Shown: piece after piece, positions 10,343 through 57,182 of the stretch
Position numbering within the stretch: the stretch's first letter is position 1
Layout: every line of letters starts with the position of its first letter
Origin: Lentisphaerota bacterium
GTDB lineage: Bacteria > Verrucomicrobiota > Lentisphaeria > Victivallales > Victivallaceae
Direction of reading: 5' to 3'
Assembly (NCBI GenBank): GCA_015061805.1
Contig: SUVV01000016.1
Location: 1 to 57,182, forward strand
Length of the DNA stretch: 57,182 nt
Made by a program: the position numbers and the translations under genes
The notes under the pieces: model-generated
Told to the model about the DNA's origin: nothing
Database searches by the model: none
What the model saw: only the letters and a program-made list of their open reading frames with translations

Positions 10343-10470
10343 TGTGGGGAGGGGAAAAACCTTTTTTCACGAGAAAAAATGCCGAACGTCGGCCTCGGTG
10401 TATCCCCTCCCCACACCCCACCCCTTTTCGAAAAAAGCGGGGTACGTTGCCGCTCCGTTGTCGCGGCATA
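10343..10470 (+). repeat. Family A hairpin repeat, copy 2 (variant)
   Basis: Same left arm and loop as other family A copies, the same C-rich tail and the same CCGCTCCGTTGTCGCGGCA end. The inner part of the right arm is replaced by 23 bases containing the perfect small hairpin GCCGA-ACG-TCGGC, so the long stem pairs only at its base (GGGGAGGGGA/TCCCCTCCCC). Confidence 0.8.
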
Positions 10471-27509: not shown

Positions 27510-27541
27510 TATAGCAGTAACACAAACGATGGAGGTTGGCC

Positions 27542-30439
27542 ATGAAATTTAATTTTGTTTTATTGAGTTTTATAATGTGTTCAGTCCTGTGCGGTGCCGA
27601 CAAACCGCAAATTGCATGGCGTTTCACTCCGGATGCCGAAAAGAAGTTGGAGGAATTTTCCCGCGCCGGAAAAAACTGCCGCCTGAAAAATAATTCAACG
27701 GAATTCGTCGTCCGCGCCCAGTTGAAATATGCCCTCCACCGGAATTACTACCTCCACCGCTGGTATGACCGTCCGCTTTACCAGAATACCGGACTTGCAA
27801 AATTCAACACATCCAATATGATGCCTAATAATGTTGAAGCCCAGGCAATGAAGCAGGCTCTGGAAATGGGAAAAATCTCCGGGGTTGCCGCTCTTATCCA
27901 AGGCCGCAGCTACTTTTTAAAAACCAGTTTGGATAACGGCATAAGATTGCATGGAGAATTCATGACGGTCAAATATCATAAAAAAGAAAATCTTTCCATT
28001 TCCAATTCCCTGACATTAAAACTTCCCGGAATGATGCTGGCAGCCCCCAATGTTTTCCGCTTCAACGGCAAACCGGTGATAACGGTATATCCCAGCAACT
28101 ATGACACCAGTCATATCAAAGATCTGCGGAAAATCCTCGATGAAAAATATGGAGCCGATAAATTCAATCTGGTTCCCTATGTATCTTTTCATAATAAACG
28201 TAAATTCTCTCGGCTGAATCCCCCGTTGACTGCTGCTGACATCGAAAATATGGCAGAAGATCTGCGCTCACACTTGCGGCACTCGGAGGGTATCCATATC
28301 CATTCCGCGCATTTTCTCACCTACAACCGGGTGGACAATGCATTCGGCTTCAAGGTGATGATACCGATTCTGCACAAGATATTTTCGGAACCGGAGTTTA
28401 AGGATAAATTTCTTTCCTACGGTTTGATCCAGGGGTTGGAAAATCAATACCGCTGGAACCGCAACCGGGATTCTGAAGGAGTTGCCACCTTGAGAAAAGA
28501 ACTGGAATTTATTTCCGCTCTCCGTCCGGATATCTGCCTTTTGGCGGAATGGGATGAGGAAAACGAAAACACCTGTTACCGCCCGATGGTCAACACCGGG
28601 TGGAGTTCTTTGCGGATGCTCCGCCACTTTGCCGAAAAAATCCGCGGCGAAAAATTCACCGCATTTCCCGGCGATGACCTTTCCATTCCCAATATGATTT
28701 TCTGTTACCGCCGGAGACTGCTGGCCGGAGAAACCGCAGAGTTTCAAGTGACCAATATCCCCGACCAGACGCCGGAACGCAACTGTAAAATTTCACTTAC
28801 GCTTTGCGATGCCAACGGCAAAGTGATCAGAAAATTTGCTCCGAAAAATTTGAAAACAACTGAATGTAAAGATGTAACATTCACCGTTCCGGCAGTGGAA
28901 CTGCTCAAATATCAGCTTGTAAAACCCCGGCTTGAAATCACTTGGGAGGGTGGAAAATATGTTTCCCCTGATTCTTTCTGGGCGCAGGAAATACGCGCCG
29001 ACTGGAATCAGGATTGGCAATGGGCAAAACATCCCTTACGCGAACAGCTTGACGGAATAAAAGCTGATTACACCATCACCCCTTATGAAAATGGCTTGCT
29101 CCGGTTGAAAGGCAAAATTTCCAGCCCGGTTCCCATGGCACAGGCAGAGATACTTGACGGCAGTGATACCGTTTGGATGGCGGACAACCGCCCTGCCCTG
29201 CGGGAAACGGACACCGATGCAGTAATCAAAATCGAACTGCACGGCTTGGGGCGGCACAAACTGGATTTAACGCTCGATGTCCAAAATGCGCCCAATGCGA
29301 AAATGGCAAACGGCAAAAAACTGCCGTGTAAAATCATTGACAAAAAATGGAATCATGTTTTCGCAAAATCGTTTTTGATCCGCCTGCCCAAAAGCGAAGT
29401 CAGTAACGCGATGCTCAAGGTAAAAATCCCCGGCGTTTATGATGAAAATATTTCCATTAAAGAGGTGATGGATAAACACGTTCTGGGGTTCCACACCACA
29501 ACGCGCAATCTGGCGCTGGTGGTTTCCCGCTACAACAGCCAAATCTCCATCCCGCCGCATATCGACCGGAAAACGGTTGAATTCGATTGCTTTGTCATTC
29601 CTGCCGATGTAAAAAAGAGTGTATTTTCTTTGCGGGTGATCGACAAACGCGGCAACACCTGGCGCGGCGGAGAAAAATCGCTTTATACGCCATCCGGCAA
29701 AGAAAAGAGCTTCACCGTTTACGACCATGCCTCCAAAGGTGCGGTCAAAATTTCGGCAGACGAAAATCTGCTCACTCCCATGAAATTTGATTTTGCTCCC
29801 GGCAGAGGAACCGTCGTTCCCAATCCCGCCGGACGGAAATATTACGGTTTGATGAATGGTTGCACTCCATTGGTTTCCAACATCGGCATCGGCGGTTCCC
29901 GCTACGGTTCGCTGCTGGCGGATGATATGGCCAAAGGGAAAAATTTCCCGGAACTCCCGGTCAGAACAAAAGAAGATGACGGCAGTTGGAGCCTCTCTTT
30001 CGACAAATGCTCCCATCTTTCACTGCCGATGCAGGTGGTTCCGATGCACACCGGATATAAGATAAAAATGCAGTTGCAAGTGCCGAAGCACTTCAAACAA
30101 ATGCAGCATATTTTCGGTTCCGGCAGTCACGGTTTCATGCTGGCAGTCATAGACGGTACGCTCCGGGCAAAAATGTTTATCAATGATCTTTTCTGGAAAA
30201 CCAAAGGCGGCACGGTTTTCGCCAAGTCCAAAGGGAAACTTATTCCCGGCAAGTGGAACGATGTGGAAATTATCTACGATCATAAAAACTTTTATGTGAA
30301 ACTCAACGGCGAAGCGGGAATACCCAGAAAAGTTACCGGAGAGCAGATGTATCCCCAAGCCGGTATCCTCGGCGGCGGCGAAAAAAAGAATGTGAGTTTC
30401 ACCGGCAAAGTCAAAAATCTTTCAATTGAGGTGTACTGA
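27542..30439 (+). CDS. Large secreted protein, possible glycoside-active enzyme
   Basis: 965 residues with a signal peptide (hydrophobic 6-16, SVLCGA cleavage or a weak lipobox). The N-terminal part (about 60-400) resembles GH71/GH99-like barrels: [15 protein letters not shown], then FNLVPYVSF and [13 protein letters not shown], the pattern of barrel strands with acidic ends. The middle has beta-sandwich-like repeats. The C-terminal ~200 residues look like a concanavalin/LamG-type module ([20 protein letters not shown]). The start at 27542 has GGAGG six bases upstream. It is divergent from an AraC gene and followed after one base by a pseudopilin gene. A role in attacking or binding an external polysaccharide is inferred, not shown. 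Confidence 0.6.
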
Positions 30440-30440
30440 A

Positions 30441-31322
30441 ATGAACGGCAAAAAATCGTTTACGCTGATTTTCAAACGCTGCGACAAACTGGAGCAGCAA
30501 AATACCCCGCTTTTTTTGAAAGAGAAAGGGGGCGCGGGGGAAAGGGAAAACTTTTTTCCCCGTGAAAAAAAGTTTTTCTTGTCCCCCGCACACTACCATT
30601 TCACTTTGATAGAATTGCTGGTTGTGATTGCAATAATCGCCATACTGGCGGCGATACTGCTTCCGGCACTGCAAAGTGCCCGGGAGCGGGGACGCGCGGC
30701 AAGCTGCGCCAGCAATATGCGCCAATTCGGGCAGGCGTTTCAAATGTATACCAATAACACCGAATACTTTATGCCTTACACCAAAACAGCGGAATCCAAA
30801 ATGAAGCCGGGGAAGAGTGTTTACTGGACCGGCTATCTTTACGGATATGGTATTTTGCCGTTGAATGTATTTGCCTGTCCCTCATTTCATCCGACGGCAA
30901 ATAAAAAAACGCAAACTGCGGTCGATGAATACGGCAATATCAACTACACCGGCTACGGTTATCCATACTACAACATCGGTGCCGGAAGATATGTCTGCAA
31001 CGTGGATACCGGCGTAAAAGTAAGTGAAAGTGTACTCAAGAGTTCCAAAGTAAAATTTCCCTCTCAAATGTATGCGCTGCTGGATGGCTGGGTGCAATTC
31101 GGTTCCGGCGGCACTCACGGCTATTTGAATCTCTCGTACAGAGCAAGTTATCTTACTTCGGATTCGATTTCCTCTCCCCATGCCCGTCATCAGAAGTCGA
31201 TAAACATTCTTTATGCTGATGGACACGTTTCATCGAAAAAGGTCGGCAATGTAAACAATGCTTACCCGGATTTGGGCGGAACCGATAAGTTTGCCGTCCA
31301 CTGGTCAGGCTGGAAAGATTGA
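30441..31322 (+). CDS. Pseudopilin-like protein (H-x9-DG type) with repeat-derived leader
   Basis: 293 residues. The type IV pilin signal [18 protein letters not shown] starts at residue 54, not near the N-terminus. It is preceded by [10 protein letters not shown], a truncated second copy of the signal, and then about 40 residues encoded by a family A repeat (30476-30592). The mature part has the [20 protein letters not shown] helix and near the C-terminus [12 protein letters not shown], the H-x9-DG-type motif of Lentisphaerae/Planctomycetes pseudopilins. The residue before the cleavage point is His rather than the usual Gly. It starts one base after the stop of the large secreted protein, so both are co-expressed. 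Whether the 53-residue leader is processed is unknown; initiation further downstream cannot be excluded. Confidence 0.8.
30476..30592 (-). repeat. Family A hairpin repeat, copy 3, inside a coding region
   Basis: Inverted relative to copies 1 and 2. From the minus strand it has the G-rich/A-rich hairpin (loop related to CACG), a C-rich segment, TTTCAAAAAAAGCGGGGTAT and the CAGTTTGTCGCAGCG end. It is open in the pilin frame and contributes codons 12-51 of that gene. Confidence 0.8.
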
Positions 31323-31380
31323 CTGTTGCAAAATTGACTTGCGGAGAAGAGACCTTTTCAAGTTTTTACAACTTTTTTTT

Positions 31381-31485
31381 GCGACCATCGGGAGCAAGCA
31401 TACCCCGCTTTTTTCGAAAAGGGGTGGGGTGTAGGGAGGGGAAAAACCTTTTTTCTCGTGAAAAAAGGTTTTTCCCCTCCCCACA
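31381..31485 (-). repeat. Family A hairpin repeat, copy 4
   Basis: Same orientation as copy 3. The hairpin (31431-31483) ends 14 bases from the stop codon of the minus-strand metallophosphoesterase gene, so it follows that gene's 3' end. Together with copy 3 it brackets the mature pseudopilin coding segment as direct repeats about 0.9 kb apart. Confidence 0.85.
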
Positions 31486-31498
31486 ATACATCGAATTA

Positions 31499-32599
31499 TT
31501 ATTTCAACTTTTTCGTAGCGGCAGGTTTGCCGGATTTATCGGTATAAAATTCAGCAAAAACACCTTTATCGCTGATCTTGAGATAAACAAATCCGGTGGC
31601 ATTATCGTAAAGTTCATAACTTTCGATCTTGAGTGAAAGCAGATAATCGATTGGCTTTTTGTGCATCGGTTTCTTCCGGCGTGCCGGAAGCACCCGCGCC
31701 AGCATTTCATCAAAATTCTTACAACGCACCGCGAATGGTTTTCCGGTATTCCAGGCAAAACCGATACTGCTTGCGACCATCTGAGTAATTGTATTTTTTC
31801 CATTGCTGACCTTGATCACAGACGGAACGTGGGTGTGTGCGGCAAGGACAATGGCATTGTGTTCAAAGAGAATATCCGCAACCTTGCGGTAATAGGGCAT
31901 CAACCAACCGGGACTGGCGGTGCAAGCGGCGAACAACGGCAAATGGGTGAATAAAAACACATGACGGTTCCGGGGATACTTCCGGAATGTTTCTTTGAGG
32001 AATTTGATGGAATCATCCGGCTTGATGTAAGTATCATAAAAAATAAACAGATCTTCACCGTGACGTATTACATAATTATTTTTGATCTCACGACCGAGTT
32101 CTTTTGCAATGTGCGGCGTAAAAGCCTCGGCATAGGTCTGGTAATCTTTAAGCGACTTGACCACGCTTTTGGGACCGTAACACTGGTTGTCGTGGTTTCC
32201 CGGTATCGACAGGAGTTTGTGATCGGGATAATATTTTTTGACCGCTTTGAAAGCATCATCAAGCATTTTTGCCCGCTGTTCTTTCAGGGCAAGATATCCC
32301 TGGATAAAGTCCCCCAGCTGGACGACAAACGGCACATCTTTATCCAGCAGAGCGGCAGAAGCGGTAAACAATTCCGGCATCTCTTTCTGCCACATTTCAT
32401 AATATTTTCTGGAAAATTTCGTGCGGTATTTCATCCCCGGTATTCCGTGATACTGCGGACCTTCATAGTGAATATCGCCAAACACCAGCACCCGGTATTC
32501 TCCGGCGGCGGCATTTTTACTGCCGGACGGAGATTTACAATTAAAACACGAACATCCGGCGACGGATACGGCAAGCAGAATTGCAAAAACATTTCTCAT
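31499..32599 (-). CDS. Calcineurin-like metallophosphoesterase lipoprotein, paralogue
   Basis: About 366 residues, clearly paralogous to the protein at 612-1673. The lipoprotein signal ends in VSVAGC, followed by the metal motifs FGDIHYEG, GDFIQG, PGNHD, HLPLF and AAHTHVPS, and a similar C-terminal tail (FTDKSGKPAATKKLK-like). Its substrate is unknown. Two Met starts (32605, 32599) are possible; AAGGG lies nine bases before the second. A family A repeat follows the stop codon, as with the paralogue. Confidence 0.84.
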   Translation of the reverse strand: MRNVFAILLAVSVAGCSCFNCKSPSGSKNAAAGEYRVLVFGDIHYEGPQYHGIPGMKYRTKFSRKYYEMWQKEMPELFTASAALLDKDVPFVVQLGDFIQGYLALKEQRAKMLDDAFKAVKKYYPDHKLLSIPGNHDNQCYGPKSVVKSLKDYQTYAEAFTPHIAKELGREIKNNYVIRHGEDLFIFYDTYIKPDDSIKFLKETFRKYPRNRHVFLFTHLPLFAACTASPGWLMPYYRKVADILFEHNAIVLAAHTHVPSVIKVSNGKNTITQMVASSIGFAWNTGKPFAVRCKNFDEMLARVLPARRKKPMHKKPIDYLLSLKIESYELYDNATGFVYLKISDKGVFAEFYTDKSGKPAATKKLK

Positions 32600-45510: not shown

Positions 45511-45518
45511 GTGTTCAC

Positions 45519-45696
45519 GGAGCGATCTCGCTGTGCCGGAGCGCGCCTTGCGGTCGTCGCCGCTCGGGTCGAGTACGCAAGTACACTCCCCTCGCGGACT
45601 CCTCGGCAAAACGCGCCCGGCTGTGCGAGATCGCTCCTGATTCCGGGCGGCTTGGTTTGCGCCAATCGTTGGGCTGAACGCCCAACAGGCGAAAGG
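45519..45696 (+). repeat. Family C nested palindrome, copy 2
   Basis: The outer arms GGAGCGATCTCGC (45519-45531) and GCGAGATCGCTCC are perfect complements and enclose GAGTAC-GCAA-GTACACTC. A distal hairpin GTTGGGC-TGAAC-GCCCAAC follows. Closely related to 13398-13576. Confidence 0.85.
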
Positions 45697-45864
45697 ATTT
45701 TCCGAAGCGCGCCTTGCGGCGTTCGATCCTCCAGTCACGTACTCCAGTACGCTCCTGTCGGCTCTCACTTGCAAAACACGCCCGGCTGTGCGAGATCGCT
45801 CCTGATTCCGGGCGGCTTGGTTTGCGCCAATCGCCGGACTGATCGTCCGGCAGGCGGATGGCGA
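45697..45864 (+). repeat. Family C nested palindrome, copy 3 (left arm missing)
   Basis: Directly follows copy 2. The outer left arm is replaced by TTCCG, but the right arm GCGAGATCGCTCC, the inner CGTAC-TCCA-GTACG hairpin and the distal hairpin (GCCGGAC...GTCCGGC) remain. Confidence 0.8.
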
Positions 45865-45867
45865 TGT

Positions 45868-45998
45868 GTTGGTTTGCACAGCAAACCAACGTGAAGCGCA
45901 GGATAAAGATCCTGCGTGAAGCATTGCTCCGCAATGTGAAGAGTTTGCCTGCGGCAAACGTGAAGCGCTCGCTTACGCGAGTTAAGGATATGATAACT
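45868..45998 (-). repeat. Family B hairpin string, copy 3
   Basis: Inverted relative to copies 1 and 2: stems GTTGGTTTG/CAAACCAAC, GCAGGAT/ATCCTGC, CATTGC/GCAATG, GTTTGCC/GGCAAAC and CTCGC/GCGAG separated by GTGAAG. It ends in GATATGATAA, the complement of the TTATCAT..C end of the other copies. Confidence 0.85.
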
Positions 45999-46045
45999 TT
46001 TTTATGAGATTTCGTGATGTCTGACAGCAGTGTGGTCTGCGCCAA

Positions 46046-46108
46046 TTGTGAAGAGTTTGCCTGCGGCAAACGTGAAGCGCTCGCTGGCGCGAGTAAGGAT
46101 ATGATAAC
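46046..46108 (-). repeat. Family B hairpin string, copy 4 (partial)
   Basis: Only the last two hairpins remain: GTTTGCC-type and CTCGC-TGGC-GCGAG, with the GTGAAG spacers and the GATATGATAA end. It lies about 60 bases before the 3' end of the convergent exonuclease gene. Confidence 0.75.
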
Positions 46109-46171
46109 TTTTATATGTACCGTTTACGCCTGACGACGACTCATAACTCCCGTTGGGGAGCGGCGGATTTT

Positions 46172-51748: not shown

Positions 51749-51863
51749 TCGGGGGGAAGGGAAAAACTTTTTTTCACGAGAAAAAAAGTTTTTCCCTTCC
51801 CCCCGAACCCCCTAACCCTTTTCAAAAAAAGCGAACTATTTTGCCGCTCCGTTGTCGCGGCAG
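51749..51863 (+). repeat. Family A hairpin repeat, copy 5
   Basis: The hairpin (51749-51804) has arms GGGGGGAAGGGAAAAACT and complement around CACG. A C-rich tail, TTTTCAAAAAAAGCGAACTAT and CCGCTCCGTTGTCGCGGCAG follow. It lies after the rubredoxin gene. Confidence 0.85.
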
Positions 51864-51870
51864 TTAAAAA

Positions 51871-51973
51871 TTATCACATCCTTACTCACGAAGTGAGCGC
51901 TTCACGTTTGCCGCAGGCAAACACTTCACATTGCAACGCAATTCTTCACGACGGATGAAATCCGTCTCTTCAC
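51871..51973 (+). repeat. Family B hairpin string, copy 5
   Basis: The stems are CTCAC-GAA-GTGAG, GTTTGCC-GCA-GGCAAAC, ATTGC-AAC-GCAAT and GACGGAT-GA-AATCCGTC, each separated by CTTCAC. The first and fourth stems differ from the other copies on both sides of the stem, preserving pairing. Confidence 0.85.
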
Positions 51974-57120: not shown

Positions 57121-57182
57121 ATTGTGGGGAGGGGAAAAACCTTTTTTCACGAGAAAAAAGGTTTTTCCCCTCCCCACCCCCC
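57121..57182 (+). repeat. Family A hairpin repeat, copy 6 (cut by window end)
   Basis: A near-perfect hairpin GTGGGGAGGGGAAAAACCTTTTTT / complement with loop CACG, followed by CCCCCC at the window edge. It begins eight bases after the stop of the preceding gene and continues beyond the window. Confidence 0.85.

Follow-up and report, generated by a model that had tools for sequence, protein, structure and literature searches.

The window pilin gene and its leader

Here we describe a pseudopilin-like gene and its leader in the window, by which we mean the whole 57,182-nucleotide (nt) stretch of DNA that was analysed. The gene comprises 293 codons (30441–31322, forward strand), and its product combines a DUF1559 match (PF07596; 36.3 bits, cut-off 23.3) with an N_methyl motif, which scores 19.7 bits in the protein alone (cut-off 21.2) and 23.9 bits in the genome search. 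It is preceded on the same strand by a gene for a 967-aa protein without a Pfam match (27536–30439), the stop codon of which ends 1 nt 5′ of the pilin ATG, and is followed by a convergent metallophosphoesterase gene (PF00149; 31499–32605, reverse strand). A GAGGTG resembling a Shine–Dalgarno sequence (30428–30433, forward strand) lies 7 nt 5′ of the ATG at 30441. The class III signal of type IV pseudopilins has Gly at −1, Glu at +5 and a hydrophobic segment, and is recognized by a prepilin peptidase. Glu at +5 and the hydrophobic stretch are present in the window protein, and one Peptidase_A24 gene (PF01478, 57.9 bits) is found in the window genome. Because residue −1 is His, with Gly absent, and because this residue varies across the 39 pilins of the genome, we refer to the protein as pseudopilin-like only.

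Codons 1–53 consist largely of a truncated signal and an in-frame hairpin repeat. A first signal copy is reduced to FTLI (30459–30470) and is followed by a 43-codon insert (30471–30599), which is a unit of a repeat that we call family A; the second copy, FTLIELLV (30600–30623), leads into the hydrophobic segment (all on the forward strand). A preliminary description, made from the letters alone, had placed the pilin signal at codon 54 behind a truncated copy of itself, with about 40 leader codons supplied by family A. This layout was borne out (F at 30600 and ATG at 30441), as was the remark on differing codon use in the two FTLI copies (ttt acg ctg att versus ttc act ttg ata). A second repeat copy in the same orientation does follow the gene, starting about 59 nt and ending about 165 nt past the stop at 31322. 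The commoner family A leaders have a full first FTLIELLV, with the two copies 177–279 nt apart; since many family A leaders begin in this way, the truncated copy of the window is best interpreted as derived from them by an in-frame deletion.

The family A repeat

The matching parts of the two copies that flank the mature segment are 30534–30588, the main hairpin of the leader unit (forward strand), and 31430–31484; with their left parts, they extend over about 30491–30588 and 31381–31487, the latter lying on the forward strand between the pilin and the convergent gene. The segment 30499–30592 folds as two stems (−45 kcal/mol, z = −4.9; 0 of 200 shuffles equal). Six copies are present in the window, the other four all on the reverse strand: 1691–1801, 10343–10468 (partly rearranged), 51750–51870 (with stop codons in the pilin-aligned frame) and 57121–57182, at the contig end. 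Genome-wide, 82 pieces were matched, with arms counted separately and the copies at 10343, 31381 and 57121 outside this list. Given the six window copies, the 82 pieces and the folding z-score, the repeat is not a product of chance. Outside pilins, the pilin-aligned frame contains a stop in 11 of 15 copies, these being the usable alignments after exclusion of one duplicate row and one opposite-arm row. No Rfam match above the gathering score was found in 29500–32500. Mobilization by a RAYT transposase was rejected, as the sole Y1_Tnp match of the genome (L223, G000:C29:20906–21220) has three internal stops, in an assembly that is 91% complete and could lack an intact gene.

The window also holds family B arrays (1810–2079, 45516–46111 and 51891–51956), in which an invariant GCTTCAC/GTGAAGC spaces differing short palindromes. 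Many palindromes of pilin leaders are delimited by this heptamer too, and some leaders contain family B-related arrays in frame (..KASASC..CFIQSA). Two tRNA-like, near-identical copies (99%), recognized by eye, are located at 196–278 and 327–409, 131 nt apart.

The window locus in sister species

In two sister species, G018 and G003, 97% of 700 nt upstream is common to the window, the FTLI remnant is identical and the family A insert is retained. The 967-aa upstream gene is orthologous and syntenic in both as far as their contigs reach. Homology to the window stops at the pilin stop codon, past which the DNA is different and, by eye, repeat-like. A second family A copy was not found in the 3.6 and 2.8 kb examined downstream in G018 and G003; the bracketing of the mature segment is therefore no conserved part of the system, and the second copy was rejected as a functional partner. 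Thus the bracketing emphasized in the preliminary description is real in the window and is not conserved in either relative. Judged by these alignments, the window gene is a stable, fixed product, with no exchange at its locus in three species. G018 also carries a second copy of the 967-aa gene, 70% similar and located after the pilin (L415, G018:C26:26501–31836); behind it is another pilin, L217, with a plain short leader.

Inserts that regenerate the signal

The window genome (G000) is 2.29 Mb in 34 contigs and 91% complete. Of its 44 N_methyl matches, 39 passed a motif and length filter, and these were compared with 64 pilins of G018 and 41 of G003 (144 in all). Classified by motif, the leaders of G000 are whole or partial family A (19), palindrome (12), B-array (1) and plain (7); the corresponding numbers are 9, 30, 5 and 20 for G018 and 14, 15, 0 and 12 for G003. 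The window gene is thus not alone, since 19 of the 39 G000 pilins have a family A-type leader. When all three frames were scanned up to 600 nt upstream, 29 of 30 first FTLIELL copies among the 144 pilins were in frame with the real signal; the single exception, L261, has an array with two inserts. An in-frame ATG is present in 33 of the 34 complete family A leaders, a further 7 being cut at a contig or stretch end. Another pilin start with two FTLIELL copies, L040 (G000:C18:51984–52317), stops soon after the signal at a contig end.

Several unrelated repeat classes occupy the same place between two FTLIELLV. Of 42 family A leaders, 19 begin their signal with the codons TTCACTTTAATAGAA; none of the 102 other leaders does so. 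The two FTLIELLV copies of a leader differ in sequence in 28 of 29 pairs and so represent no fresh target duplication; a transposon with target-site duplication was rejected on this count. One locus, with synteny to either side, carries the insert in G000 (L031) and is empty in G018 (L290); the junctions follow CTTGT and CTGGT. As the insert carries its own FTLIELLV codons, it regenerates the signal that it interrupts and leaves the mature protein as it was. Among the matches listed, inserts in frame are found again in separate assemblies. Among the best 80 of 239 confirmed loci, named relatives have mostly plain pilins; the closest named match is a Lentisphaeria assembly from sheep colon, and many others are ruminant-gut Lentisphaeria. 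Two-copy leaders in these relatives (L103, L108, L110, L117, L123 and L170) were read on the forward strand only, a survey that misses minus-strand loci.

Palindromes built on the signal codons

A palindrome with an arm of at least 5 runs into the F codon in 14 of 39 pilins of G000, 39 of 64 of G018 and 15 of 40 of G003 (those of its 41 with 60 nt upstream), compared with 4.2% in mononucleotide shuffles. Upstream palindromes with an arm of at least 7, family A hairpins included, number 22, 33 and 22 in the same genomes (0.5% in shuffles). Many leader palindromes are perfect and gene-specific, the arm being the pilin's own F–T codons: in the 49 cases with a GTRAA no more than 26 nt upstream, the R agrees with the F-codon wobble base in 47, and the base before it with that of the T codon in 46. 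For the F codon, TTC is the more frequent choice (91 of 144 in the three genomes). Across 137 genomes of the order, GTAAAG...CTTTAC precedes the signal at 212 sites in 34 genomes (20 of the 34 in the genus), a sum over the full genome table, and the mismatched GTAAAG...CTTCAC at 5 sites in 5 genomes; this contrast covers these two forms alone. Constraint on the protein cannot account for two wobble bases that covary. In RNA genes, perfect hairpins can be created and maintained by template switching (PMC8794818), a process that could keep the leader palindromes perfect as well.

Exact duplications of a palindrome unit of 31–38 nt were found in eight leaders (one in G000, seven in G018 and none in G003), and in all eight the length is not a multiple of 3. 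With one unit removed, an ATG falls in frame 42–87 nt away; in two of the eight, an ATG is still available 6 nt ahead of the F codon. An in-frame ATG is likewise retained in six further duplications that are inexact (91%). Exact unit duplication thus shifts the frame of the leader, as in phase variation by repeat number, and may thereby switch the gene off.

Proposed exchange of upstream regions at the FTLIELL codons

Reciprocal ortholog pairs were defined by mature sequence only (at least 68% DNA identity over 300 nt; n = 22). In the 18 pairs whose members each have at least 250 nt of upstream sequence, upstream homology (threshold 100 nt) was kept in 11 and lost in 7; like the other counts given here, these come from related genes, so that sample sizes overstate independence. 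All six pairs with family A on both sides kept it (three of the six being the window gene), and so did the plain gene L001 in 3 of 3 comparisons of this one gene, retaining 105–178 nt at 58–66% protein identity. A palindrome leader was present on one or both sides in six of the seven pairs that lost it, two of them with family A on the other side. Pairs with palindromes on both sides showed no match beyond −42 within 900 nt (6 of 6, two of which had less than 250 nt available).

The break is sharp in six pairs, in which homology sets in near the F codon (between −15 and +6) and extends 1.1–7.1 kb downstream. It runs from −4 to +3661 in L025/L297, with about 8 kb of unrelated DNA upstream on both sides; from −15 to +7138 in L003/L286; from −5 to +3915 in L035/L294; from −8 to +7132, in pieces, in L033/L304; and from +6/0 to +5.7 kb in L241/L287. 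In L024/L292, an identity of 87% extends from −3 to the contig end, a stretch that reaches 340 nt beyond the stop, and nothing is in common upstream. No upstream-to-upstream match was found in any of these six pairs, although only 153 and 275 nt of upstream sequence were available in two of these six kilobase-scale pairs. In L018/L307, homology starts at −42 and part of the leader is common. Read from these alignments, different upstream regions stand before the same downstream block in related species.

A swap of partners can be traced for L294 of G018: its 5.7 kb upstream are syntenic with the region upstream of G000 L007, and the pilin itself with 3.9 kb downstream matches G000 contig C17. 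A second swap (L019 versus L274 and L243) is less well supported, since the upstream regions match in dispersed fragments. Individual pairs on either side of the count are less clear-cut. Among the seven, L235/L224 has a 76-nt upstream match that falls short of the threshold. For L011, the upstream region corresponds to DNA 2.0–3.3 kb before its ortholog, ahead of a three-pilin array of which the ortholog is the third member, so that a deletion within the array would suffice. Among the 11, L016/L282 have only the insert in common within 900 nt, with a 95% block farther upstream at a shifted distance. Pilins seem to head gene blocks, and plain relocation of such blocks could therefore remove upstream synteny. 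The genomes compared are mostly draft assemblies, in which chimeric joins are possible. The preliminary description had proposed that recombination between family A copies could shuffle leader and promoter among pilin genes, with breakpoints to be sought at these copies. Re-pairing is supported at other pilins between species; the joint, however, lies at the FTLIELL codons, where homology breaks, whereas pairs with family A on both sides keep their upstream regions and the window gene itself is unexchanged.

Contig ends within the window genome

Of 68 contig ends in the assembly, 44 were examined and 10 lie within 450 nt of FTLIELL. The first 127 nt of contigs C17 and C28, comprising an upstream stretch with the ATG and leader, are identical; C17 then goes on to two palindrome units and one pilin, C28 to a single unit and a different pilin. 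At their ends, C27 and C33 have in common 127 nt of a single mature pilin, behind different leaders. These two cases hint at re-pairing within the population, of which such a pattern is expected; two loci each would also give it. No continuations of the C17/C28 and C27/C33 branches were found in the same assembly, and separate loci and population variants are therefore indistinguishable here. The window contig ends in a family A copy (57121–57182), and several other ends fall at family A-like sequence or pilin starts.

A model for the pilin start region and its alternatives

The comparisons show the pilin start region as a hot spot, where hairpins, inserts and whole upstream regions differ between relatives. 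We give about an even chance to the reading that it is a hypervariable joint at which leader and promoter are re-paired with the downstream operon, the family A insert being a tolerated passenger. The long leader of the window pilin would then be a relic of an event common in the genus: a hairpin unit entered in frame behind a first FTLIELLV and, ending in its own FTLIELLV, regenerated the signal. The leader is presumably removed by the prepilin peptidase of the genome, which would be why the insert is tolerated. The signal codons, common to dozens of paralogues, would form the joint between leader and upstream regions on one side and downstream pilin operons on the other, most likely through homologous recombination over these codons. 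Palindromes just upstream may stimulate this recombination, and either template switching or selection acting on the hairpin may keep them perfect; duplication of a palindrome unit would shift the frame and may switch the gene off. In a wider form, expression would be shuffled by a system anchored at the signal, with N-terminal codons as joints, palindromes that mark or provoke exchange, duplications that switch genes off and the window insert as a frozen by-product; we regard this extension as possible, if tentative.

The same leaders could be the work of a purely selfish palindromic element, comparable to those of Rickettsia, that entered leaders in frame and was tolerated because leaders are cut off, with upstream differences due to ordinary relocation of blocks and rapid divergence of leaders that are under no constraint. 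Family A copies outside pilins, the stability of the gene-internal copy in three species and the upstream homology kept in 6 of 6 pairs with family A on both sides all suit such an element. It accounts poorly for several unrelated repeat classes at one position between two FTLIELLV, for signal codons tied to the insert and for the 28 of 29 differing copy pairs; nor would it lead one to expect that L024/L292, 87% identical from −3, are unrelated upstream when the plain gene L001 keeps its 105–178 nt. We consider it rather unlikely. Regulation rather than recombination, in which the palindromes serve as RNA hairpins or operator sites adjusted to each gene and leader differences reflect differences in control, would fit palindromes that are gene-specific and covary with the F and T codons, and two chained palindromes could form alternative hairpins; yet loss of upstream homology at the F codon and exact duplications that shift the frame are left unexplained, and we judge this account quite improbable.

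Metagenome assembly could also have joined wrong leaders to wrong pilin operons at repeats, as the 10 of 44 examined contig ends near FTLIELL and the close similarity of family A inserts might suggest. Against such an artefact, which we hold to be very unlikely, the contig overlaps are 127 nt long and exceed the 24 nt of FTLIELLV codons, the exchanged junctions of L025/L297, L033/L304 and L024/L292 lie deep inside contigs, and separate assemblies repeat the in-frame inserts (among the matches listed). Finally, translation might begin just before codon 54, making the repeat 5′ UTR, and there is an in-frame TTG seven codons before F54. This TTG is missing from SPIKP-type inserts, codons 48–53 hold no ATG, GTG or TTG, GAGGTG stands before the ATG at 30441 and first copies are in frame in 29 of 30 leaders. 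The 5′ UTR reading, barely credible on these grounds, was rejected. Neither of the outcomes that the preliminary description had set against its own proposal, a sole pilin with such a leader or a start near codon 54, was found.

Relation to known systems

In the pilE/pilS system of Neisseria and in the R64 shufflon, recombination over common pilin sequence joins constant parts to new variable ones. There the mature sequence varies behind a fixed start, whereas in the joint proposed here upstream region, leader and promoter would vary before a fixed mature operon. No account of such an arrangement in Lentisphaerae was found among the titles and abstracts listed, a search with subscription journals mostly outside its scope.

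Palindromic elements of Rickettsia are about 150 bp long and lie in frame inside protein genes, coding a conserved peptide (PMC10969869); they lose arm identity over time, according to PMC6649704. Family A resembles them in arrangement, being palindromic and in frame in a gene, with the frame kept in relatives. In contrast to the elements as portrayed there, the units here affect numerous members of one gene family at a single position, the unit resupplies the interrupted signal, the encoded peptide belongs to a leader that is probably removed, and many leader palindromes are perfect. PMC6649704 further describes perfect inverted repeats in coding DNA of Nematomorpha mitochondria that are gained or lost between species, for which template switching is suggested. 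Many leader palindromes are likewise perfect inverted repeats inside coding DNA; they differ from those described in being short and chained and in ending in the F–T codons of one signal across numerous paralogues, and duplicating them shifts the frame. REP elements, associated with RAYT transposases, are abundant small palindromes often found between convergent genes (PMC3733652). The second family A copy of the window also lies between convergent genes; in contrast to REP elements as outlined there, the pilin unit carries a coding end, and the one Y1_Tnp match of the genome has three stops.

Implications

Palindromes whose arm is a gene's own synonymous codon choice offer a natural test case for the making of perfect hairpins by template switching. 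If the signal codons do act as a joint, a removable signal peptide would double as a recombination platform, one that tolerates inserts, swaps the promoter of an operon without touching the mature protein and switches by frame. This would provide a sequence-testable answer to how the lineage diversifies its large sets of pseudopilin genes.
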